A DNA stretch of 48,230 nucleotides from a virus (IMGVR_UViG_3300025133_000182:1-48230); one strand, 5' to 3'; shown: positions 455 through 46,852, numbered from the stretch's first letter. A program made the numbers and translations. Notes: generated from the letters alone by a model not told the origin.

Positions 455-708
455 TTTAATTTGATCCCTGCTTTTTTAAGGTTTGCATGCAATCCCAACA
501 TCCAGCTTCTAAATATAGCGTCCATGTCGACCTTGCCATCATACTTGTTCATAATTCTAAATACGTCATTGTTAACTTTATTCAAAGCCTTAAACATATC
601 ATAATCTGGTCCTTCAGTTATGGATTCTGATAAAGCTTTCATTCGCTTTTTCTCATTTATAATTTCTTCGCGAATTATTTTTTTTATTTGCTTTAGTGTT
701 ATTTTCAA
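451..708 (-). CDS. 85-aa protein with KLK-type N-terminal peptide, TTG start
   Basis: The frame starts at TTG 708, which overlaps the upstream TGA stop as TTGA. AGGAG lies about 7 bases before it, and the encoded start (M)KITLKQIKKIIREEIINE fits the family peptide of its neighbours, so TTG is preferred over a later ATG. The remaining 65 residues are mainly helical, with no recognisable domain. From memory, N-termini of the KIT-(K/R)QL-(R/K)-IIREE type are frequent in marine phage small ORFs. Function is unknown. Confidence 0.72.
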   Translation of the reverse strand: MKITLKQIKKIIREEIINEKKRMKALSESITEGPDYDMFKALNKVNNDVFRIMNKYDGKVDMDAIFRSWMLGLHANLKKAGIKLK

Positions 709-1076
709 AATTGTTCTCCTGCTATTGCGTTTTCTAGGGTTTTCTTGATATCACTAGGCGATACATCAATCACCCCGTCCATATCACCTTTCCAAATGTC
801 TATTTTGTCACCGTTAACATACAGTACTATTGATGGATAATTCCTTAATCGTAATTTCTTACAAACTTTCTTAGCATCCTCAGACATAACCTGCAACACT
901 TTAGCATCCTCATATCCTTTTATACCTTTAACATACTCCATGCCATCGCCTTCTGCCCATTTAGATGTAAATACAACTATAACCACACCATCACTAATTT
1001 CTTCTTTAAAATTTTTATCTGTGACTTGTCCGCTTAGGACACCCAGCAACAATAACGATAAAATTATTCTCTTCAT
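705..1076 (-). CDS. Exported thioredoxin-fold protein lacking the CXXC pair
   Basis: Residues 1-17 form a Sec signal peptide (basic MKR, then ILSLLLLGVLSGQ). The mature part has the thioredoxin pattern: a beta strand VIVVFTSKW at about 31-40, where WCxxC would normally follow but WAEGDG is found, and the cis-proline loop NYPSIVLYVNG at about 79-89. The single cysteine in VCKKLRL is not the redox pair. It should therefore be periplasmic and redox-inactive, perhaps a chaperone or protein-binding module. It overlaps the downstream TTG-started gene by 4 bases and belongs to a run of exported proteins. Confidence 0.72.
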   Translation of the reverse strand: MKRIILSLLLLGVLSGQVTDKNFKEEISDGVVIVVFTSKWAEGDGMEYVKGIKGYEDAKVLQVMSEDAKKVCKKLRLRNYPSIVLYVNGDKIDIWKGDMDGVIDVSPSDIKKTLENAIAGEQF

Positions 1077-1085
1077 AACTAACTC

Positions 1086-1682
1086 CTACTTGTCCCGTTT
1101 CCTCTTTTCGAGGTCTTTAATGTCTTTTCTTAGTTCTTTAATAATATCTTCCAGTTCCTCAACTTGTTCAAATACGTCGCCCATATCTTCCTGAAGTCCA
1201 CCTACCTGGGATTTGTATTGTTCAAAAGACCTTGGCCAATTATGACCACCTGGCTTTGATGGATATTCAGCTTCATATAAGCTTTCTAAACTTGGTAATT
1301 GTTTAGCTTCTTCAATTTCACCTTGTAATGTATACCACATTCCAATCAATGACGCTAAACCAGTTCCAGCGGCAACCATAGTTTGAACCGATAGTGTGAA
1401 TTTAGTATCTAATACCTTATCTTCACTTATTTCGATTGGTTCTTTTGCCGTAGGGCCTTCTATTTTTTCAACAATCTTTTCATGATGTTCTTCATGACCA
1501 TTGCCGTGTTTTAATACAACGTCTGTTATATCATCAAGAGTGCAATATCCTTTGTCCACAAGTATCTCACCAAGTGATCGCTTATCACCCTTTATTTGGG
1601 CTTGTAAAGCCTGATTCAATTGTCTCTTTGTAATTATATCTTCATCACAAAGAAGCTTGCCTATTTTAATGTCTCCGTTCAT
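1086..1682 (-). CDS. Membrane protein with GspE-N/MshEN-like N-terminal domain
   Basis: Residues 6-58 show two copies of the pattern of type II secretion/pilus ATPase N-domains (GspE-N, MshEN): IGKLLCDEDIITKRQLNQAL and SLGEILVDKGYCTLDDI. A His/Glu-rich linker (about 59-75) follows, then one membrane segment near 97-119 and a charged C-terminal coiled coil (about 160-198, ending EKRKRDK). No ATPase domain is present. MshEN domains of some secretion ATPases bind cyclic di-GMP, but whether this copy does is unknown. The Arg of the usual RLG box is absent (KIG and SLG here). The start overlaps the stop of the 46-aa gene as TAATG. Confidence 0.65.
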   Translation of the reverse strand: MNGDIKIGKLLCDEDIITKRQLNQALQAQIKGDKRSLGEILVDKGYCTLDDITDVVLKHGNGHEEHHEKIVEKIEGPTAKEPIEISEDKVLDTKFTLSVQTMVAAGTGLASLIGMWYTLQGEIEEAKQLPSLESLYEAEYPSKPGGHNWPRSFEQYKSQVGGLQEDMGDVFEQVEELEDIIKELRKDIKDLEKRKRDK

Positions 1683-1822
1683 TAAAATCTCCTATTAGAA
1701 GTCGTTATATTACCTTTTGCTTTCTTTTTAGCGCGTTGCTTAGCCGTTCTACCTTCCTTATTTAACTGTGTGTTAAGTAATATTCGTTTTCTTTTTCTAT
1801 CTTTTGCTGCTTTATTCGGCAT
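1682..1822 (-). CDS. 46-aa highly basic protein
   Basis: An ATG at 1822 opens a 46-residue frame starting MPNKAAKDRKRKRILLNTQ and ending TTSNRRF. It is rich in Lys and Arg (KDRKRKR, KQRAKKKAKG). It fills the gap between its neighbours exactly, with TAATG junctions at both ends, which is good evidence that it is real. Nucleic-acid binding is plausible from charge alone; no family is recognised. Confidence 0.7.
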   Translation of the reverse strand: MPNKAAKDRKRKRILLNTQLNKEGRTAKQRAKKKAKGNITTSNRRF

Positions 1823-2403
1823 TAGTAATACTCCGAATAAAAGGTATTAGAAGTATCTGTTTCAATCTCTATATTTTCAAAAACAATTAATCCATTCTGC
1901 ATTTCTTCCCTATAAGGATTCCAATATGTTCCTTCTGCATATCCACTGACAACATTATCATCATTAGCGTTTATAATACCTTGTGCATTTGTTGTATAAT
2001 CCGATGTTCCTACAATTTCTAATGTAATACCTTTTGTAGATTCTGATGCTGGGTTTATATAAACTCCTTGATCTATTAAGTCACCATTATCATATGCATC
2101 ATTATCGTAAAAGATTAATGCATAATGTTCCTTTTCAGGTGATATGCGGCCTACATCTTTTTGAAAATGTATTACAAATATTTTTTTAATAGCATCCGGG
2201 GCCGGACATGATGGATTACAAACGCCTTCATGTGCCTCATGCGCATGTGAGGATTCACCAAAAGTAGTAATACTTTCATAATAATCAAATACAGGTATTA
2301 CATCACCATTAACCCACATTTCAATGGATGCCGGATCTTTATCCGCTACCCTAGAATCTTCACAACCAAATGCTAATAATAAAATTAATAATACTTTCTT
2401 CAT
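1822..2403 (-). CDS. Predicted outer-membrane lipoprotein, His-rich segment
   Basis: The 193-residue product begins MKKVLLILLLAFGCEDS, a signal peptide with a lipobox-like LAFGC, so Cys14 is the likely lipidated residue. Near residues 52-70 there is a His/Cys-rich stretch (HAHEAHEGVCNPSCPAP) that could bind metal. The rest looks like a beta-rich extracytoplasmic domain with many Asp, Asn and Tyr. It lies 1 base from the barrel gene upstream and shares TAATG with the gene downstream. Asp at +3 does not predict inner-membrane retention, so the outer membrane is likely. No family is recognised. Confidence 0.68.
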   Translation of the reverse strand: MKKVLLILLLAFGCEDSRVADKDPASIEMWVNGDVIPVFDYYESITTFGESSHAHEAHEGVCNPSCPAPDAIKKIFVIHFQKDVGRISPEKEHYALIFYDNDAYDNGDLIDQGVYINPASESTKGITLEIVGTSDYTTNAQGIINANDDNVVSGYAEGTYWNPYREEMQNGLIVFENIEIETDTSNTFYSEYY

Positions 2404-2404
2404 T

Positions 2405-3691
2405 TTAGAATCCCATAAATTGATAATTTAATCCAAACTTAAAGTCATAAGCAGGCCTTTCCCAATAATATAAATATTTCCCTTCGGCAAATACGCCTAA
2501 ATTGTCTCGCAGCTTAACACCAAATATCGCACCAAAATCGTAATCGTCCCACACCATCCACATTGGCTCCATATACATAAATTTGTGTGGATCTTTGCCA
2601 TCTTCTAAATGCGTAGTATAGTCTGCTGCATTGTGATATGAATATTTGTCATGACCAAAATGATAAGGTAACCAGTTACCCCAAGCGTGGATCCACCAAT
2701 TATCTGAATGGTGATAGAAATCCGCACCTAAAACTAGTGACGTTTCTTTTTGGAATCCAATATCTTTCTTTACACCATCTATATATTCTTCTAACATGCC
2801 TGGAAAATGATACACAAAATATTCTCTGTCTGTATAAGCAAATATTCTACCATCAGCATCTCTCCATAACCAATCGTGACCCCAATACTCACCACCTTCA
2901 TTCCAAAATGGACCAGAACCTTCAATCGGTACCCATTCACCATTTACGTATTCTAATAGTTCGGATTCAATCCAATTACCATCTTCATCAATTGCATTTC
3001 CATCGGCCCACATATTATCGTCAATACCAAAAGCATCTTCTGCAAAATCCCACCATGAACCACGATACCAAGTTGTGTCCAATACCATAGCATCAAATCC
3101 GTATACAGGATGTTGTCTATGTTTTGCACCAATACTTACTGTAAAGCCATTATCTAATACCGGTAACGTCCACTTTACTCTTAAATCACCTTGACTATAT
3201 ACAATATCTTCTAGACCTAATTGTGTCCAACCAACCTTAGCCATAAACCAATTGCCAGTATATCTTAACCAATATTCTTGATTAATATATTCTTCACCCC
3301 ATTGACGACCCTCAGTCCACTTTAAAAGATATTCCCATCCTTTAACTGGTGCTATTGTCGCACTTTCATTAGCATTCTTTTCTGATCCATCATACCAAGT
3401 TCCACCCACCCCAGCATTTTTTACTCCGCGCTTTGGTTCGTATTTGAATCTACCAATTTTTCTCAAGCCAAATGATTTTTGAAAATCCGCTTCAAACTCA
3501 CGTTCATCTCGTGCAACTTCTAATTGACCAGTACTTAATCCACCAGTGATTGTAAATCTATCGTCTTGATAGCGCGGGGCATTAAGGCTGAAACTTGCAT
3601 AAGCTGTAGAATATTTAAAAAACTTCCAAAGTTCTGTTTCCGCAAACAAAGATGAGGTTAATAATACACCTAATATAATTTTCTTTAACAT
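2405..3691 (-). CDS. Probable outer-membrane beta-barrel protein
   Basis: Residues 1-17 are a cleavable signal peptide (MLKKIILGVLLTSSLFA). The mature part of about 410 residues is very rich in Trp, Tyr, Phe and Gly with alternating strand patterns such as YWLRYTGNWFMAKVGWTQL and FTVSIGAKHRQ. It ends in KFGLNYQFMGF, close to the aromatic terminus typical of outer-membrane barrels. The middle (about 220-300) is acidic and loop-like. It is followed after 1 base by the lipoprotein gene. A barrel carried by a phage could alter the host surface, for example to exclude other phages. The assignment is from composition, not from a recognised family. Confidence 0.6.
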   Translation of the reverse strand: MLKKIILGVLLTSSLFAETELWKFFKYSTAYASFSLNAPRYQDDRFTITGGLSTGQLEVARDEREFEADFQKSFGLRKIGRFKYEPKRGVKNAGVGGTWYDGSEKNANESATIAPVKGWEYLLKWTEGRQWGEEYINQEYWLRYTGNWFMAKVGWTQLGLEDIVYSQGDLRVKWTLPVLDNGFTVSIGAKHRQHPVYGFDAMVLDTTWYRGSWWDFAEDAFGIDDNMWADGNAIDEDGNWIESELLEYVNGEWVPIEGSGPFWNEGGEYWGHDWLWRDADGRIFAYTDREYFVYHFPGMLEEYIDGVKKDIGFQKETSLVLGADFYHHSDNWWIHAWGNWLPYHFGHDKYSYHNAADYTTHLEDGKDPHKFMYMEPMWMVWDDYDFGAIFGVKLRDNLGVFAEGKYLYYWERPAYDFKFGLNYQFMGF

Positions 3692-3708: not shown

Positions 3709-4065
3709 TTAATCATCGGCGTGCTCTAATAATTTAACATCGTCTTCTGCGTTATTAAACCAAAAGTCGATGACCTTAGCGAATGAGCCGACAAACCCAC
3801 CAAGCATTAATAATAATATCTCTTTCCAACCACCTACTACATCAACACCTTGACTCATAAAATAAATCATAAGTGCTAGTATAGTAGCAAACAATGAAAC
3901 TACAACAATGCTGATTAGCCATTTTTTATTTTGTCTAAACTTAATAATACCAATTAATTCAGTATTGATAGCATGCTTCTGATCATTAATATGAAAATCA
4001 TAGGGATCTGGATCTAAAGATTCTATCGGTGACATTCCTATCTTATCTGTTTTATCTGTAGCCAT
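3709..4065 (-). CDS. Holin-like small membrane protein
   Basis: This 118-residue protein has a polar N-terminus of about 47 residues, then two membrane segments: KWLISIVVVSLFATILALMI (about 48-69) and ILLLMLGGFVGSFAKVIDFWF (about 83-103). It ends in an acidic tail. The GG-(F)-VGSFAKVIDFWF pattern followed by a charged tail resembles small phage holins of the VIxFWFG type. No endolysin lies immediately beside it. Cytoplasmic-membrane pore formation is a family-based inference, and a generic membrane protein is the alternative. Confidence 0.5.
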   Translation of the reverse strand: MATDKTDKIGMSPIESLDPDPYDFHINDQKHAINTELIGIIKFRQNKKWLISIVVVSLFATILALMIYFMSQGVDVVGGWKEILLLMLGGFVGSFAKVIDFWFNNAEDDVKLLEHADD

Positions 4066-4563: not shown

Positions 4564-5661
4564 TTAAATATCAAACCGAATGATAAATGATAAGGCTAAC
4601 TCCGGATCATTCCTAACCGGTCTAGATGTTTTAGCGACCGCTAATAGATCTCCATGGTCGTTGTAAAGCCCCACAGTAGTAACATATGGCGCAAAAAAAG
4701 AATGCGTTGTAAAATTTTCCGCCATAGGAGTTGCGTTATATCCTTGAAGATTATACCCTGCCTCAGACGGTGAGGGCATAACTTGTCTCATTTCATTTAA
4801 CGACATGCTTGGTAAATTTAAACTTCCACTTCGCTGAAACGTTGTACTGATATTAGTAGTTGAATTAAATTGGTTCTCTGGAACAGTAACAGTATATTCA
4901 TGTTCGTAAAGTGTTTTAGTCGATTGAAATTCTAACGTCCATCCAGTAGATCCACTTGATTGTGCGCCCGCGGATGAATATGATCCTGTATCGGTTAACA
5001 TTAATAACCCATGAGAATATGAAACAACCCCAAGTGCTGATCCAGAACCATTTGCAGTTAAACTACCGGTCATAAATTCAGTTTCATACACTTTATCGTA
5101 TAAATTTCCATATCCATCATCTACTAATTCTCGTTTGGCTCCTGAAGAATAATCGTTTAACACTATCGATCCGGACTTCATTTTTTCACCAAACAATGTT
5201 TGTGGAACACTTATTACGTTTGCAACGTTATGAATTTTTCTAATGTTTAAGTTTTTCCAATGATAGTTTCCATTTGTAGCTCCTTTACCATGGCCCCACG
5301 GAATGAAATTAGTGTCAAGGGTATGTTGTGGCATAGGTGCCGGGCCAAATCTATTTTGTGCGTGTGCACTGTCAAAGAAGTTAACTTTAATCTGATTATA
5401 TAATGGAACTTTATAATACCGGTATTGTTGACCATCCGCTGGATCTGTATATGAGGTATATGTTGCAGAAGCACTCAACCAGCCATTATTATTACTTGTA
5501 CCTTCACCATTAGCACCCTTAAATGAGGATGAAACGGCATGTAGCGCCAAAACACCTAATCTAGTCGCCGTATCAGTGTTATTGTAATACGTGATTGTAA
5601 ATCGCTTATTTACTTCATGTGGAGTAATTAAACGATCTTCTGATGCTATATCTCCGAACAT
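4564..5661 (-). CDS. Virion structural protein, paralogue of next gene (C-terminal domain shared)
   Basis: The 365-residue protein is rich in Ser, Thr, Gly and Asn and low in Lys, typical of tail fibre or decoration proteins. Its last 40 residues (YVTTVGLYNDHGDLLAVAK, then SRP and a beta strand ending RFDI) align with the end of the 335-residue protein encoded next to it (YITTVGLYNGANELLAVAK, SRP, RLDF). The two probably share an attachment or assembly domain at the C-terminus and differ in the outward part. An ATATTTATA motif lies 22-31 bases before the start, and a strong hairpin separates this gene from the upstream one. The exact virion location is unknown. Confidence 0.65.
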   Translation of the reverse strand: MFGDIASEDRLITPHEVNKRFTITYYNNTDTATRLGVLALHAVSSSFKGANGEGTSNNNGWLSASATYTSYTDPADGQQYRYYKVPLYNQIKVNFFDSAHAQNRFGPAPMPQHTLDTNFIPWGHGKGATNGNYHWKNLNIRKIHNVANVISVPQTLFGEKMKSGSIVLNDYSSGAKRELVDDGYGNLYDKVYETEFMTGSLTANGSGSALGVVSYSHGLLMLTDTGSYSSAGAQSSGSTGWTLEFQSTKTLYEHEYTVTVPENQFNSTTNISTTFQRSGSLNLPSMSLNEMRQVMPSPSEAGYNLQGYNATPMAENFTTHSFFAPYVTTVGLYNDHGDLLAVAKTSRPVRNDPELALSFIIRFDI

Positions 5662-5682
5662 AGTTGTCTCATACTTTATTAA

Positions 5683-5692
5683 TTATAAATAT
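5683..5692 (-). promoter_or_regulatory. Candidate late promoter motif ATATTTATAA
   Basis: On the minus strand the sequence reads ATATTTATAA, 22-31 bases before the ATG of the 365-residue structural gene. The same core occurs before three other structural gene starts in this window. On the plus strand it contains TATAAATA, the T4 late consensus, but in the orientation opposite to the gene, so direct T4-type use is uncertain. Confidence 0.4.
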
Positions 5693-5717
5693 AATCTATA
5701 ACAATTTTTTGGCTATA

Positions 5718-5751
5718 CAATAAAAAACCCGCTAGCGCAGGTTTTTTATTG
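5718..5751 (-). terminator. Bidirectional intrinsic terminator
   Basis: A 12-base perfect inverted repeat, CAATAAAAAACC and GGTTTTTTATTG, flanks the core CGCTAGCGCA. It gives a GC-capped hairpin with U-runs on either strand. It lies 19 bases past the stop of the 335-residue structural gene and before the 365-residue gene, so it should end the upstream transcript. Confidence 0.8.
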
Positions 5752-5769
5752 AGTGCATAAGAATCCTTA

Positions 5770-6777
5770 TTAGAAATCTAATCGTACTTTAATTAGTGCT
5801 TCTCTATTCGTAGATTTAAGAATAGGTCTAGAAAGCTTAGCAACCGCTAGCAATTCATTAGCGCCATTATAAAGTCCAACAGTTGTAATGTAAGATTTTG
5901 GATCAGTTCTAAATGACGATATTGTTAAATTCGCATTAGATCCAGAATAATATGTTGGGTTTTGACTATGATTATATTTGTGGTGTTTTACTCTACAAAA
6001 ATAGTGTGTTGATTTAATTTGTTCTTCACGTCTTGCAGCAAAATATGCACCACCTTTAATACTGTTATAAAAGGCTTCTGAGTTATTATCATTATTATTT
6101 GATGCTGTGGCGTAACCCGTCATATTCATATAATTCATCATGAGGTTTGCATCAAATACTAATAATCCTGGTTCTGGATAAAATTTTCCATAATATTTGG
6201 TAGAAGATCCTGTTACTGCCGTTCCTGAGGCAATCGAACCTGATATAATGTTAAACTCGCGTACTGTCTGCTTAACATTCGGATCTGCTGTTGCACCGCT
6301 ATCATCAATAAGCTTTAATGTTTTACCTGCAGATCCAGAAAGATGAATTTCCCAGTTGCCTGGATCCATTTTTTCTTTTAATCTCGTACGATTAATTGTC
6401 ATTCCAAAAACCGTATTAGATGACGTTGCATCCGCGGCGCCGAACTTAAATGTTGTTTGGTTCTGTGGTAGGAGTAAATTTCTTAATTGTCTATAGATTG
6501 CTTTTGAAGCTTTATAATTGCTATCGCCCGATAGAGAACCGGAACCATTTATATCTCCAAATGTAACTGAAAATTGTACGGATGCTGTGGCGTTTGTACC
6601 GACAATGCCATTGTAAACATCATAATAATGTTCACCTGTACTACCGCTTTGGGTGGATGAAGTATAAAACGCAGTAAGTGTTCCAACTCCTCCAGACCAC
6701 ATCCCTGACGATACAACACTTACCTGACCTGGTATAATGTCATCTGTTTCAAATGGTGTAAAAATACTATCTGGCAT
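5770..6777 (-). CDS. Virion structural protein, paralogue of preceding gene
   Basis: This 335-residue protein has a Ser/Gly/Thr-rich body with many short beta strands and a C-terminal domain (YITTVGLYNGANELLAVAK, then LSRP and KVRLDF) shared with the 365-residue neighbour. From memory, this 'TTVGLYN..ELLAVAKLSRP' ending recurs in structural proteins of marine T4-like phages. It begins a transcription unit: an ATATTTATAAG motif lies 20-29 bases upstream of the ATG and a terminator follows the stop. It is likely a tail or baseplate-associated component; the exact position is unknown. Confidence 0.65.
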   Translation of the reverse strand: MPDSIFTPFETDDIIPGQVSVVSSGMWSGGVGTLTAFYTSSTQSGSTGEHYYDVYNGIVGTNATASVQFSVTFGDINGSGSLSGDSNYKASKAIYRQLRNLLLPQNQTTFKFGAADATSSNTVFGMTINRTRLKEKMDPGNWEIHLSGSAGKTLKLIDDSGATADPNVKQTVREFNIISGSIASGTAVTGSSTKYYGKFYPEPGLLVFDANLMMNYMNMTGYATASNNNDNNSEAFYNSIKGGAYFAARREEQIKSTHYFCRVKHHKYNHSQNPTYYSGSNANLTISSFRTDPKSYITTVGLYNGANELLAVAKLSRPILKSTNREALIKVRLDF

Positions 6778-7217: not shown

Positions 7218-8116
7218 TACTTCATTCCCTTATTGTTGTCGCCTTCAGATCCACTATCATCGCCTTTAGAGTCTTTGTTATCGTTAGTGCCAAATCCTTT
7301 GTCTTTATCATCACCGCCTTTCTCTGTACCACTATAAACAAAATAAACTTGACCAGAACCTTGAACGTTAATCATAAAAGGTTTAGCAAGTGCAGCACCG
7401 TCTAAAAAGCTTGTTTCACTGTCGGCAATAATAGTAATTCCACCAGTTGTTTTTACAGCAACCACTTCAACGCCAAGAGATTTGTTCTTAGGTCCTTCAA
7501 TTCCTATTAAATATCCACCTGATGGCGCAGCTTTCCAATCGAAATTAACTCCTGGAACACTTTTACCATCAAAGGTTACTTTCTGCATATACATTAAAGG
7601 AATAGTATTCCCATTTGTAGCCTTAACGTGTTGAATCTGTATAGGAAAAGTAGTAGGTGTATTAAGTTCTTGTTGTGTAACGTAATCACCTTCAACCAAA
7701 TCAACGAACTCATCAGATTGTAATTCAAAAATATAGTCTTCTGATTCATTACCCATTCTTAATGTAGTAGGAGAAATTACTATAGCTTGGGCTTGATCGG
7801 GATCCGTTTTTAATGTTACTGACGAGGGTATACCACTTAACTCGGGAATGAATGCATCGCCTATTTCTAAAGTTGTTAGCTTATATTTCATAGCCATATC
7901 AGATTTAGTGACAGCTTCCAATATAGGCATATTTTCTAATGCTACACCGTAAAAATTTGGTCCATTTGTATTTGATTCATCATACAAACCGTAATCTATT
8001 TCGTCATCAGCCAATGCGAATTTATCAATAAAAAATTCATTTTTAGATAACATCTCGCGACCTTTATCGGTTAATACGGCATCAACGATCAATGTGCTTT
8101 TATCAAGAAACGCCAT
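7217..8116 (-). CDS. Tail/baseplate structural protein, paralogue of 230-aa neighbour
   Basis: Residues 1-85 (MAFLDKSTLIVDAVLTDKG, then FFIDKFALADDEIDYGLYD) align closely with the N-terminus of the 230-residue protein encoded next upstream (AILTKKGRELL, ITKFALADDEVDYSLWD, then YYGTVIENLPLLEP). The two are therefore paralogues that diverge after about residue 90. From memory this N-terminal domain is common in marine T4-like structural clusters. The C-terminus is Gly/Asp/Lys-rich and probably disordered (GGDDKDKGFGTND). The N-terminal domain probably docks to the particle. Confidence 0.65.
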   Translation of the reverse strand: MAFLDKSTLIVDAVLTDKGREMLSKNEFFIDKFALADDEIDYGLYDESNTNGPNFYGVALENMPILEAVTKSDMAMKYKLTTLEIGDAFIPELSGIPSSVTLKTDPDQAQAIVISPTTLRMGNESEDYIFELQSDEFVDLVEGDYVTQQELNTPTTFPIQIQHVKATNGNTIPLMYMQKVTFDGKSVPGVNFDWKAAPSGGYLIGIEGPKNKSLGVEVVAVKTTGGITIIADSETSFLDGAALAKPFMINVQGSGQVYFVYSGTEKGGDDKDKGFGTNDNKDSKGDDSGSEGDNNKGMK

Positions 8117-8139
8117 GCGTCAATTCCTTATGTTATTTT

Positions 8140-8832
8140 TTATGATTGCCCAGTAGTATTATCAATATACTGTACAGTTATCGTAGCAGAAGCTGTAGCA
8201 CCGTAAGTTAATCCTGTTACTAGTATTGTAGTTGAAGGATTAGGTTCACCAGTATTTGGTTTAGAAATAGGTTTAGCGTATATTGAACAACTATTTCCGT
8301 AAACGGTTTGACTTACATTTTGAGTGCTAGATACATAATTGATTCCAGAGTTTTCATTAGCGCCCGCGTCTGGATTGCTTTCGGCCGTTAAATAGCATAT
8401 TGATGAATTTAATATGGTAAATGAATATCCATCTGGATCTAATTCGTCAGGTGCAAATTGTGTTTCAACTGTAACGACTTGACCATTACCTGAAGTCTGT
8501 GTTGTACCATTCCATGTTACTGTATATCCACCTGAATTAATCCCGGTAAGTATTGCCATCTGACGAGTACCAACATCTCTTGTTACCAATTTATATTTCA
8601 TAACAGTATTTGGATCGGTTACAGGTTCCAATAGTGGAAGATTTTCTATTACCGTTCCATAATAATCTGTGCCTAAGGGATGGCTAACATCCCACAAAGA
8701 ATAGTCAACTTCATCATCGGCCAACGCAAATTTCGTAATTGAAAATTCGTTTTTGCCACGAGCTAATAATTCACGACCTTTTTTAGTTAGTATCGCATCC
8801 AAAACTGTGGTTGCGTTGTTAAGGTATCCCAT
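8140..8832 (-). CDS. Tail/baseplate structural protein with shared FALADDE N-terminal domain
   Basis: The 230-residue product begins MGYLNNATTVLDAILTKKG and contains KFALADDEVDYSLWD at about 33-47. It shares its first 85 or so residues with the 299-residue protein that follows. Its C-terminal half is a different beta-rich, Thr/Ser/Asn-rich domain. An ATATTTATTA motif lies 41-50 bases upstream, so it may begin a late transcript that continues through the 299- and 125-residue genes. Confidence 0.65.
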   Translation of the reverse strand: MGYLNNATTVLDAILTKKGRELLARGKNEFSITKFALADDEVDYSLWDVSHPLGTDYYGTVIENLPLLEPVTDPNTVMKYKLVTRDVGTRQMAILTGINSGGYTVTWNGTTQTSGNGQVVTVETQFAPDELDPDGYSFTILNSSICYLTAESNPDAGANENSGINYVSSTQNVSQTVYGNSCSIYAKPISKPNTGEPNPSTTILVTGLTYGATASATITVQYIDNTTGQS

Positions 8833-8872
8833 TTTTTTATTCTCCTAAAATTATAAGAACAACTTTTATTTT

Positions 8873-8882
8873 TAATAAATAT
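8873..8882 (-). promoter_or_regulatory. Candidate late promoter motif ATATTTATTA
   Basis: The minus strand reads ATATTTATTA between the stop of the 2,513-residue gene and the start of the 230-residue gene, 41-50 bases before the latter. It shares ATATTTAT with three other sites ahead of structural genes. Confidence 0.35.
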
Positions 8883-8895
8883 TCGTGTCCCATGA

Positions 8896-11800
8896 TTATT
8901 CATCCGTTATTTCCGTATCTAAATAAGTATCGCCTCCACCGGAAGTTGTTACACTGTATGGATTCACTTCGGAAATTTCAACGGCTACCTGAGGCTTATT
9001 TTGTGCACCAGGACCTCTAGGCGCGGTTGTACCATCTTCTTTACATCCATTATACGCTAAATTCGTTAGTCCAGCATGTGTCGTAAACAAAGATTCAAAT
9101 TCTGATGCTATTAATGAAGATGAATATGGTTGCTTGTACAATTTGTTTCTTGATGCAGTCCTACCATTACTCGCCGTATAATAAAATTCATATTCCATAT
9201 TATGTTCAGATTTTTTAGATGCGGTATAACTTGGTTCAAGTCCTGAGAAAAAGGACGCCTGACTTCCACCGTATGTGACCTTGGCATCTGTATAGTCTCT
9301 ATCATTTGTATCTAATAAATAATCTACTCCGAATTTTTTAATTGAAGATATGACCGGAATAGACGATGAAACCGTTGCATAATCGATCCTATCAGATTTT
9401 AATATATTACTAAAATTTAAATGCCTTGATCCAGTTTTTTCAAAGTAATCAAGTCTTTGGCCCGGCTTTGGTTCTAAACAACTAGAAGTAGTAACTGTTG
9501 CAGTTCTAAACAATGCATTACTAGATGACATAAAATATGAAAATTCTGGAATGTGCGCAGATCTATCAAGTTGTGAACTTGTTACTACCGAGCTTATCGT
9601 ATCAGCTGGAAAGTGTGCAACTGGTACAGTTTTATTCGAGGCCGTATATTCATATTGGTAAACATTTACCGTTGCGCGACTATATTCTCTAGAACTTGTT
9701 ACTGTATGCTGATCAGTTTCTTCTATTTCGGCTTTTGCATATACATCTTCAAATGTTGGCTTTTTACCTACTACTACTTTTGTTCGTTCTAACAATGTAG
9801 GTTCGAATAAAAGTCCCATATTCTTTTTAGCCCTTGCCGGAGATAAAGATCGTAAAATATCGAATAGCGACAAATCATAATATTTTATCAATTTAATATA
9901 ATCCCAAAAGCCCTGTTTGGTAGTCCACTTTTGCCAATATGTGTCGGCAATCCTATCAAATCTTCCAAACGTATAGCGATCTTCTTCTTCATCTCTAGGA
10001 TCTCCAAGATAGGATCCAAAATCCATATCCGCGAGAGAAAGCATAATGTCTTCATTTATAACATCAGAAGGTGCAAAAAATACTCCTAACTTATTTGAAT
10101 CTAAACCCGCCGTATCATAACTACTTATTTCGACTCTTTCTGTTGGACTTAAATTCGCTAATGCACCATCTGGAGTTTTTAATATAGAATTTTCTATTCT
10201 TACTTTATTAGACATTTTATTCAATCCAATTTTTGGAACAAACGCTTTTTGCCTATCTGATACGTTAGAAAAGTTAACCCTGTCTGGGAAGCCAGAAGCC
10301 GTAGCATACAATTGGCCGCCAGTTAGAGAATAATCTATTATTGTATTTGGTAAATCGCTTAAGTTTGCATTGTCATCCATTGAAAACCTAAGATCCATGT
10401 CGTAATACGATGAGCTGATATGATTACCGTTAATCGACTTGGGTGCAGCAACATGGTTCCAGAATGCAGATGCTGTCAGTGGAGTATTCCAATATCTCCA
10501 TTCCATAACAGAACCACTAAGCATATTAATTCCTGTTGAATTTGTATTCGCAGAGCGTCCACCAATGTACCATCTGTTATTTACTCCTGAACCTGTTGCA
10601 TAATAATTTTCACTCAAACTACTAGTAACTGTTAAGCTTCCAGATTGCTTTACAATTATTTCATCAATACCTGAATCAAAATAGCCCGCAAATAAATCAA
10701 AACTTTGAGTTGTAGTATTATCTGCGCTTACAATCATATCTGAATAGCTACTTGTAAGATGGGATGTTGAAGCTCTACGCCTTAACATCACTGACCAATA
10801 TTCGCCGTTATAAACCGGCTGAGGGGCTAAGCTCATGCTTTGCTGATTCGCGCCGGCGCCATAATCAGAAACCATAAAAGTAATTTGACCCTTGCCATCA
10901 GATCCTGAAACGTTCTTAAGGAATATGGAAGCTTCTAAATCACCTCCCGATGTCTTATGTTTTGCAGCCAAGAACATATCATCTTCTTTTGTGGCTTTAA
11001 ATCTAAATTCTATAGTATCAGGTACTCTAGTGTTTCCAGTGTGGTACCATGGGGATTCGATATATTCTGAACCTTGAAAGTCCACGGCTTTTGTAAATCT
11101 TTGTTTGATTTCAAAATCTGGTTCACCGGTGATTCGTGGACCACCATATTCTTGAACTCTCAATATTGATGTAGGTATTCCATAAGCGGCTAATACACCC
11201 TTTAAAGATTGCTTTGTACCTTTTGATTTCAAAAGATAAGGAGAAGACGCAAGTAATCTATTCCATATTTCACGCGTAAGATCTTTTTGAGATCTTTTTG
11301 TAAATCGTACATTCCATACACCGGAATTACTTCCGGACTCAGAAAGGCCCAAATGGTATTGTGGTAGTGAAACTAAATCTTGGCCTTCTTTCAAATTAAA
11401 ACCTAAAGACTTTGCTACAGGCTCAACAAGCGCTTGACTTATACCTTTAGTAATATCTTCAGTTCTATCATGAACATCTGTTAATGCACGAATATGCGAC
11501 CATATACCATCATAATGTTGGCCAATCATATCCATGAATCTTAAAAACTCTACATTATCACTATCATATGTTATATGCTCCGGAAGTAGATTTATAAGTC
11601 TATTACTATTTTTTCTATCGTATAACGAAGCCGTTGCTCGAGTTGCTTCATACCAGTTGGTAAATTGAGAACTTGTTACCGAATGTAAAATAAAGGGCGA
11701 TGTTAACGTACCATCCCCGACTCTTTTCGGTGCAGCATTGTCGTAAAATTCACCATTAGAACTTGTCACATATGATGAACTTTCAAAATACATGAAATTT

Positions 11801-42319: not shown

Positions 42320-42501
42320 GTTGCGCTTTCTTCTTTGTTGCCATGATGCTCCAAATATTTTTTAAACTTGTTAAGTATAACTTTGATAATAAGTTGTCTG
42401 GCTTTAGGTTTACCCCATTCAGCTCTCTGATGAGCGGCCAGTGTATCGTTTAGAATCTGTTTTAATGCTATAAAATCATCATAAACATCATACCTCTTCA
42501 T
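42316..42501 (-). CDS. 61-aa helical protein
   Basis: It begins MKRYDVYDDFIALKQILNDT and has basic helices (KARQLIIKVILNKFKKYLEH). It overlaps the lipase end by 14 bases. Function is unknown. Confidence 0.58.
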   Translation of the reverse strand: MKRYDVYDDFIALKQILNDTLAAHQRAEWGKPKARQLIIKVILNKFKKYLEHHGNKEESAT

Positions 42502-43246
42502 TGTACTTCTGCAAATTAAATTTATAATTTGTTATACTGTGATCTGATAAGCCATCAAAGTAGTTTTTATTTTTGAAACCATCCCATCTTCCTTTCAACC
42601 TATCCCACGATCTTTTCCATACGTTGGTACCAAGCTTAACTATACCTTTAGAATCAATGTAACGCAGTTCACCGTGGTGTCTATAACCCCAATGGTAGAA
42701 CGGCATCTTAGTTACATCATCTGAATTATTAACAAACCGGTAATGAGGTACAACTAAACGTTTCTTAAATGATTCATTACCCACTCTTGGCGAACCGTAA
42801 GTATATAATCCATCAATCTCCCAACCAGTAGTTTTTAATCTAGCAGCTACTATAGTAGCCATCGCTGCACCAAGAGAGTGACCAGTAATAACTAACTTTC
42901 TTCCTTTAAGTTGTTTTATAACATAGTCTCGTATATCAATCCAAAGTTTATCAACTTCCTTTTCAAATCCCTTATGTACCTTACCAAACGCATGCTTAGC
43001 CTCTACAGAATCAACATTTAAATCGGCTTTAATATCGGACCATGATTTAACTTCCGTACCCCTGAATGCGAGTATAAAGTATTCATCGTTATATGCTGCA
43101 TGAGCCTGAGCGCCACCTTTATCAAAATATTTATGTCTTGAAAATCCCATAGACTTAAATGAGGCTTTAGCTTCCTTACCGCTTAGATATGCGGCTTCTG
43201 AGCACTTTGCCATCTTCCAACCTAACTTCTTTCCATTGAAACTCAT
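42488..43246 (-). CDS. Class 3 lipase-like serine hydrolase
   Basis: The 252-residue protein has the GHSLGAA nucleophile elbow (Ser124), a candidate acid at Asp176/177 (FVNNSDDVTKMP) and His236 (LSDHSITNY). Oxyanion and lid features of lipase_3 proteins precede it: YFILAFRGTEVKSWSDIKAD (about 57-75). No signal peptide is seen, so it acts in the cytoplasm or after lysis. Phage-carried lipases might attack host membrane phospholipid or alter lipid metabolism; the substrate is unknown. Confidence 0.82.
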   Translation of the reverse strand: MSFNGKKLGWKMAKCSEAAYLSGKEAKASFKSMGFSRHKYFDKGGAQAHAAYNDEYFILAFRGTEVKSWSDIKADLNVDSVEAKHAFGKVHKGFEKEVDKLWIDIRDYVIKQLKGRKLVITGHSLGAAMATIVAARLKTTGWEIDGLYTYGSPRVGNESFKKRLVVPHYRFVNNSDDVTKMPFYHWGYRHHGELRYIDSKGIVKLGTNVWKRSWDRLKGRWDGFKNKNYFDGLSDHSITNYKFNLQKYNEEV

Positions 43247-45718: not shown

Positions 45719-46852
45719 TTAGTTGTTATCTTCATCTTCTACATCTGTAAAGAGCTCATCGGATGATCCATCTGAGGTATACTTCTGGAGAAGCTGTTTG
45801 ACGAATGTTCTCTCACTCTCTAAGCCACCAGCTGAGTCGAACTTGGGTAGCACGGATACTTGAGCTGCTTCGTCTAGTGTGAAGCCGTCGTATACTAAGC
45901 CGGTCAGCTCTACGCTGGTTCTGGTGGATATGTGTGTGGAGAGCTTCCCTTCTTCTTGGGATGATTCTTGTCGAGTGATCCACGCTAATTCAGCTATGTT
46001 CTCTCTAGTGGCGGTATCAACGTGGGGGTATAGTGATGATAATAATGTACCTTCCTCGTCTTTGTTAAGCACGTCCATTTCAATTTGGGTAAAGCGGTCT
46101 ATAAGCGCTCTGTCCATCACTCTGGTAGCGGTATACTCATTACCTATATTAGCTGTCGCTACGAAAGTGACACCAGGTGCAACCTTAACAGTTGTCTGGC
46201 CAGAAGCTTCATCCAACCGAAGGTATCTTTGTCCTTCGTCTAACACGGTCATTAGGATGTTCCAAGCTTCTGGATGGGCTCTGGATAGCTCATCTAAGAG
46301 TATAACGGCATTCTCAGTCTTGATAGCCTTAACGAATAAGGACTCTGAGAAGTATGTACCTTTCTCTTTATTGTAATGGGTGTTACCTATTAGTGATGCT
46401 CGAGGATCCTGGGTTGCTCCTAAGTTAAAATAAAAGTCTGGACGGTCAAGGCTATTAACTAGTGATTTAGCAGCCATGGTTTTACCACAACCTGCTGGGC
46501 CAGTCATCATGATATTCTTACCTCTAACAGCTGAGCGGATAAGATACTTCCACTTAATTTCACTCATCATAAGTGACTTGGGTTTAATCGAATAGCTAGA
46601 ATGGATCATCTCCAGCTCTTCAGCGTGCTTAGCAGCGGGGCTACCCGGAGCCGGTTTATCTGGGGCAGCTTCTAGTGCTGGTTGTTCATATTCAACTTGC
46701 TTCCATCCCTTAGGGGTAGACTCTAAATAACCAGTACCGTTATGACCACGTCTGAGTGCGCCTTTAGGTACGGTAACCTTTTTGCCTGTTATAACATCGG
46801 ATGCAAAAAGCTTATTCATCCGATCTCTCTTAATAACTACTATTGTTTTCAT
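45719..46852 (-). CDS. MoxR/CobS-type AAA+ ATPase
   Basis: The 377-residue protein has Walker A GPAGCGKT at 118-125, Walker B VILLDE at 183-188, a sensor-1-like TFVATANIG segment and an arginine-finger-like ALIDRF segment. The N-terminal 75 residues form a small beta domain and a Pro/Ala-rich linker (EAAPDKPAPGSPAAK). The C-terminus is acidic (DVEDEDNN). MoxR-type ATPases remodel proteins, usually with a VWA partner; no partner is visible in the window. It follows promoter copy 6. Confidence 0.85.
   Translation of the reverse strand: MKTIVVIKRDRMNKLFASDVITGKKVTVPKGALRRGHNGTGYLESTPKGWKQVEYEQPALEAAPDKPAPGSPAAKHAEELEMIHSSYSIKPKSLMMSEIKWKYLIRSAVRGKNIMMTGPAGCGKTMAAKSLVNSLDRPDFYFNLGATQDPRASLIGNTHYNKEKGTYFSESLFVKAIKTENAVILLDELSRAHPEAWNILMTVLDEGQRYLRLDEASGQTTVKVAPGVTFVATANIGNEYTATRVMDRALIDRFTQIEMDVLNKDEEGTLLSSLYPHVDTATRENIAELAWITRQESSQEEGKLSTHISTRTSVELTGLVYDGFTLDEAAQVSVLPKFDSAGGLESERTFVKQLLQKYTSDGSSDELFTDVEDEDNN

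Follow-up and report, generated by a model that had tools for sequence, protein, structure and literature searches.

What a T4-like phage gains from a tightly packed operon of exported envelope proteins is the question raised by the viral record IMGVR_UViG_3300025133_000182:1-48230. The window (the whole 48,230-base stretch that was analysed) has nearly all of its genes on the minus strand, and genes for the baseplate wedge identify the phage as a T4-like myovirus. The operon, at positions 705-3691, encodes an outer-membrane beta-barrel, an outer-membrane lipoprotein, a small basic peptide, an inner-membrane protein in which an MshEN-like domain precedes a transmembrane (TM) helix and a coiled coil (the MshEN protein), and an exported thioredoxin-fold protein (TRX). 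We found that barrel, TM-coiled-coil (TM-coil) protein and TRX recur together in divergent phage groups, in several of them near holin and endolysin genes, and we think it rather likely that the operon encodes an envelope-spanning lysis complex, spanin-like in role although built of unrelated parts, with the barrel as its outer component.

Scans of IMG/VR with a single query yielded barrel relatives of 65-93% identity in at least 87 contigs, and a profile found the barrel in at least 135. Linkage was counted only in loci with enough flanking sequence. Barrel and TRX are present in all 40 loci centred on the MshEN protein, barrel and MshEN protein in all 68 centred on TRX (with the lipoprotein in 55), and the 38 loci centred on the barrel are also complete. 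The three sets overlap in their contigs rather than being independent, the metagenomic contigs are redundant, and the barrels number 50 at 93% identity; the linkage of the three genes is far beyond chance. An initial annotation, made from the sequence of the window, had proposed an undescribed module of exported envelope proteins that might keep its gene order in other phages, and this is borne out: the set is conserved together, and barrel and lipoprotein belong to no PHROG or Pfam family. INPHARED gave no match to five barrels of different groups, the MshEN protein or one lipoprotein, and for TRX only an ssRNA-phage record (33%); absence from INPHARED and PHROGs was judged by tblastn and HMMER only. 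The barrel had no relative in bacterial genome contigs or 149 Marinimicrobia genomes, an absence that is not strict, only two peptide patterns having served for the first scan, and the lipoprotein had none in the same 149 genomes.

A profile scan with the lipoprotein reached a divergent group (32% identity) in which barrel, lipoprotein, a 94-residue TM-coil protein without MshEN, and TRX follow one another in that order. The barrel of this group in turn retrieved 59 contigs in three arrangements: group B, on nrd-bearing T4-like contigs, has barrel-(lipoprotein)-coil-TRX, group C has barrel-coil-TRX, and group D has a different order, coil-TRX-barrel, the triad being kept in both orders. By profile comparison (hhalign), the window's group (group A) and the other groups are homologous in the barrel (E = 2.6e-53), in TRX (E = 2.2e-18) and, for the MshEN protein, in its TM-coil half (E = 1.1e-11). 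The last scan found at least 569 viral contigs with confirmed barrel relatives; among the matches listed, coil and TRX are present in all 49 loci with enough flank, and an endolysin in 39 of these. The lipoprotein is absent from many relatives.

The neighbours of the triad in the divergent groups point to lysis. In all 22 testable loci of group D the same strand carries, no more than 6 kb away, an M15 endolysin (phrog_894, E = 1.5e-26; Pfam, E = 3.8e-15) and a three-TM holin (phrog_3427), and group B has an endolysin of a different PHROG family (phrog_33083) in nine of ten loci and a holin of a different family (holin_4_1) in five of ten. At seven loci the endolysin gene begins before the last module gene has ended, with four bases in common. 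The phrog_3427 holin also occurs in the window's group: 16 loci have it zero to three genes downstream of TRX, among them that of the closest relative of the window (contig L002, 346 bp after TRX). Given two gene orders and unrelated endolysins and holins, inheritance of one ancestral segment is insufficient as an explanation, and a shared role in lysis is simpler.

An AlphaFold2 model of the barrel, made with 50 relatives, is a meander of 12-13 strands, and its predicted local distance difference test (pLDDT) of 68 and predicted template modelling score of 0.62 give it moderate confidence. Its best Foldseek matches in the PDB are the 12-14-strand barrels NanC, FapF, NalP and OmpG (E of about 1e-6), to none of which, nor to any transporter, is it related in sequence. 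The signal peptide and the antiparallel barrel together identify an outer-membrane beta-barrel, as had been predicted, and 42 of the 50 barrels end in F or W. Strands counted back from the C-terminus would place a 119-residue loop (195-313) outside the cell. In BFVD, A0A516LKJ4 is a relative (Foldseek E = 4e-22, 25% identity) that is shorter, at 342 residues. Contig L033 carries two tandem barrels (8001-9302 and 9304-10557), the second only about 48% identical to that of the window.

The lipoprotein likewise proved to be correctly recognised: its lipobox cysteine is invariant in 33 relatives, and it is the sole lipobox ORF (open reading frame) in any frame across the whole window. Its AlphaFold2 model (pLDDT 83) has no relative in the PDB (best E = 0.025). 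The predicted periplasmic thioredoxin-like protein matches Pfam PF00085 (E = 7e-7) at the level of the fold, but CxxC is absent from all 35 TRX of group A, and any CxxC is found in four of the 132 TRX of other groups; a protein that has lost its redox site is better understood as an adaptor than as an enzyme. Often directly after TRX, and conserved at 25 loci, is a membrane protein of the phages that matches Popeye domains (POPDC1-3, E = 2e-13) and cyclic-nucleotide-binding domains (E = 2e-14) (for example L063:11177-11824, L035:10973-11626 and L021:14655-15311).

For the MshEN protein the initial annotation was right in describing a GspE-N/MshEN-like membrane protein, the N-terminal 55 or so residues matching PilF and PilB N-domains (E = 8e-10 and 2e-7, profile search). 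The domain is, however, an add-on seen only in the window's phage group and missing from groups B-D. The likeness to the type IV pilus ATPases PilB and MshE is limited to this domain; the phage protein has no ATPase and instead joins MshEN to a TM helix and a coiled coil. Judged by both 24-residue MshEN motifs (PMC5013675), it keeps G11, L25, Q32 and G40 of the cyclic di-GMP (c-di-GMP) motif; R9 has become K in 22 of 27 sequences, R38 S or T in 23 and G18 D in 26, and Q61 is kept in one. We have rejected c-di-GMP sensing on account of this degenerate motif.

Taken as a lysis complex, the proteins would form a chain across the periplasm, from an inner-membrane protein with a periplasmic coiled coil through a redox-dead TRX adaptor to the outer-membrane barrel, with the lipoprotein added in the window's group. 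Such a complex would be made late and serve the final step of lysis, the breaking of the outer membrane. Peptidoglycan would hold its parts away from one another until holin and endolysin removed the wall; the parts would then draw together, destabilising the two membranes or fusing them. That the proteins touch one another, act at lysis and disrupt membranes in this manner is what we infer from their predicted structures and gene neighbourhoods.

The arrangement resembles that of the two-component spanins (lambda Rz/Rz1, T4 PseT.3/PseT.2), which likewise pair, in adjacent genes, a coiled-coil protein of type II topology in the inner membrane with a partner in the outer membrane. The TM helix of the TM-coil proteins of groups B-D starts at residue 10-19 in 131 of 137 cases, as in an i-spanin with its C-terminal domain in the periplasm, and that of the window lies at about residue 95, behind MshEN; the orientation is presumably the same. 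Location near holin and endolysin is also spanin-like, with group C as the exception. Unlike two-component spanins, the set has a barrel as outer partner, a lipoprotein in some groups only (most of A and part of B) and always an extra thioredoxin-fold protein; at many loci of groups C and D no lipoprotein was recognised beside the triad, and the barrel is the sole outer-membrane part there. Comparison with known spanin families gave at best a weak coiled-coil match to the Rz-like phrog_739 (E = 0.24). Three whole contigs, which may be incomplete, were scanned for lipoproteins. In any frame of the 66.6-kb relative G199 there was none that was credible, only a 38-residue TTG ORF, and no obvious classical o- or u-spanin; contig G201 had one 36-residue ORF, and the third contig, G196, one lipoprotein in its lysis cassette. 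In some carriers the barrel is thus the sole evident outer-membrane component.

No spanin is recognised in about 13% of surveyed phages, which must break the outer membrane by another route; this route was left open, as was the possibility that 'an OMP could act as an o-spanin' (Kongari et al. 2018; PMC6139136); in a later survey, Bacteroidetes phages used only unimolecular spanins (PMC12596118). It is possible, and we propose it tentatively, that the triad stands for a third way of disrupting the outer membrane, related neither to two-component nor to unimolecular spanins, with a lysis bridge made of a barrel, a redox-dead TRX adaptor and an inner-membrane coil. It would be used by hundreds of marine phages without classical spanins, and one lineage would have coupled it to the host type IV pilus machine via an acquired MshEN. 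We found no report of a barrel/thioredoxin lysis module in the literature searched.

Several observations weigh against a role in lysis. An endolysin is nearby in only one of 12 group C loci, and searches of group A contigs via PF08291 and phrog_33083 found none. A three-TM holin lies within 4 kb of TRX in only nine of the 28 window-group loci with at least 4 kb of sequence, and neither endolysin nor holin is visible in the window, which ends 704 bases after TRX. A coil of 60-75 residues is short if it has to span the periplasm unaided, and the lysis cassette of G196 (group D) has a further lipoprotein that could be a classical o-spanin. Outer-membrane proteins near lysis or tail genes also occur as lysogenic-conversion genes (lambda lom and bor). 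In addition, median identity in the same pairs is 73% for the barrel (a figure biased upward, as the barrel was the search bait), against 60% for the MshEN protein, 56% for TRX, 50% for the lipoprotein and 35-52% for tail genes, so that the barrel is the most conserved of the genes compared except that for a 118-residue TM protein. Such conservation, the predicted outer loop included, is not obviously expected of a membrane disruptor.

The initial annotation had suggested a surface structure that blocks superinfection or changes uptake. Outer-membrane barrels and lipoproteins are the kinds of protein used in superinfection exclusion, and by altering the surface (as do T5 Llp, Cor and porin-replacing phages) the pair could prevent related phages from adsorbing or injecting; phage-encoded outer-membrane proteins are known in BFVD, and in group A the operon genes follow tail-fibre genes. 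Lom, Bor, Llp, Cor and the BFVD proteins share with our set phage genes for an outer-membrane barrel and an outer-membrane lipoprotein; unlike Lom, Bor, Llp and Cor, however, the set is fixed, includes a TM-coil protein and a dead TRX, occurs in T4-like phages, in which no sign of lysogeny was seen, and matches none of them in sequence. The barrel is far more conserved than the tail fibres, whereas receptor/exclusion pairs usually diversify, many relatives are without the lipoprotein, and the ever-present TM-coil protein and dead TRX have no obvious role in masking. With the triad placed beside unrelated endolysin and holin families in divergent groups, a lysis step is better supported, and we consider exclusion or receptor masking unlikely.

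A take-over of the type IV pilus appears less likely still. Here membrane-anchored MshEN would act as a PilB N-domain decoy, jamming the pilus machine, and pilins of the phage would take the place of those of the host, blocking pilus-borne phages. The match of MshEN to PilF and PilB agrees with this, and phage proteins that inhibit PilB have been described, namely Tip and Aqs1 (PMC11656802). Host genomes carry PilB beside the pilin operon, and no MshEN-TM protein was found in nine genomes searched. Moreover, 23 of 41 barrel-bearing contigs of the window's group encode a large type IV pilin; in many cases two or three smaller pilins come after it, arranged as in the pilus operon of the Marinimicrobia host. 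There is no pilin on the window or its closest relatives, and the c-di-GMP motif residues are partly lost. MshEN and pilins are missing from groups B-D, which retain barrel, coil and TRX all the same, and for this reason we do not take the decoy to be the operon's main function. An uptake or secretion channel, in which a porin-like barrel with its lipoprotein partner would change nutrient uptake or export something during infection, is very improbable: the 12-strand barrel resembles NanC and FapF in fold and its pairing with a lipoprotein recalls SusCD-type pairs, but no transporter is related to it in sequence, no enzyme or substrate gene is consistently linked, and the linkage found is to lysis genes.

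The pilin cassettes make Marinimicrobia the probable host of the window's phage group, the pilus role remaining a rival to lysis. At least 187 viral contigs encode the large pilin, and cassettes of this and up to three smaller pilins, with a prepilin motif, are syntenic with the host operon (L009:11084-13151, L019:12135-13271, L067:10538-12493 and others). The pilin tree requires the label to switch at least twice between Marinimicrobia (Fidelibacterota) and phage, which is consistent with more than one acquisition, the probable history of these cassettes. The literature searched yielded no report of phage-encoded pilin operons or of Marinimicrobia phages with pilins. Four contigs from metagenome-assembled genomes that hold Marinimicrobia-type or phage-type pilins, L082 (DQLC01000014.1), L103 (CAJXDJ010000153.1), L085 and L086, are labelled Alphaproteobacteria, Dehalococcoidia, Euryarchaeota and Balneolaceae; these off-lineage labels are probably binning errors. 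For the hosts of groups B-D our guess is Bacteroidota, from the look of the signal peptides.

The genes of the operon and its surroundings are listed in Table 1.

Table 1. Genes of the envelope-protein operon and its upstream neighbours in the window
Feature	Position	Strand	Basis
Outer-membrane beta-barrel, 428 aa, signal peptide	2405..3691	-	AlphaFold2, Foldseek, relatives
Outer-membrane lipoprotein, 193 aa, lipobox LAFG|C, beta-rich	1822..2403	-	lipobox Cys, AlphaFold2
Basic peptide, 46 aa, 17 K/R vs 2 D/E, net about +15	1682..1822	-	charge count; family of 24
Inner-membrane protein: MshEN-like ~1-60, TM ~95-118, C-terminal coiled coil	1086..1682	-	profile match
Exported thioredoxin-fold protein (TRX), 123 aa, AEGD replacing CxxC	705..1076	-	Pfam PF00085
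Two-TM protein, 118 aa, directly upstream of barrel	3709..4065	-	29 related loci
Two tail-fibre-like genes (4564-5661 and 5770-6777), upstream of operon	4564..6777	-	74 of 81 barrel loci

All five ORFs of the operon lie where first annotated and are as tightly packed, with junctions from barrel to TRX of +1, -1, -1 and +9 bases: one base separates barrel (2405) from lipoprotein (2403), bases 1822 and 1682 are each common to the two genes that meet there, and nine bases lie between the MshEN protein (1086) and TRX (1076). The transcription unit exceeds these five genes, as 17 bases separate the gene for the 118-residue protein from the barrel gene and an 85-residue ORF overlaps the TRX stop. 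The 118-residue protein, which has no confident family match, is holin-like by topology only. Position behind the baseplate genes suggests a tail-fibre-like function for the two genes farther upstream. T4-type late promoters (TATAAATA) are not in excess (8 against 9.8 expected). The basic peptide, whose family of 24 occupies several positions among relatives, is accessory. Small, highly basic peptides recur in lysis-linked regions (the window's own, and 44 residues at L541:10268-10402 in group D); they recall cationic disruptins but may instead bind nucleic acid. Six contigs have a cysteine-rich 43-residue ORF between lipoprotein or barrel and the MshEN gene (L024:9917-10048, L048:9298-9429). 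Elsewhere in the window are an AAA-type ATPase (45719-46852; PHROG 'porphyrin biosynthesis', E = 2e-30), an esterase/lipase-like protein (42488-43246; phrog_21992, E = 6e-26) and a baseplate protein whose nearest relatives in named phages are from a Microcystis phage (46%) and the Flavobacterium phages 'immuto' (38%).

The host-like type IV pilin operons provide a host link for viruses of uncultured Marinimicrobia. If the operon does encode a lysis complex, the triad with its outer-membrane barrel, which PHROGs lacks and at least 569 viral contigs carry, would offer a concrete and testable candidate for the missing outer-membrane-breaking step. It would also be a marker by which the lysis regions of a large share of marine viruses could be annotated.

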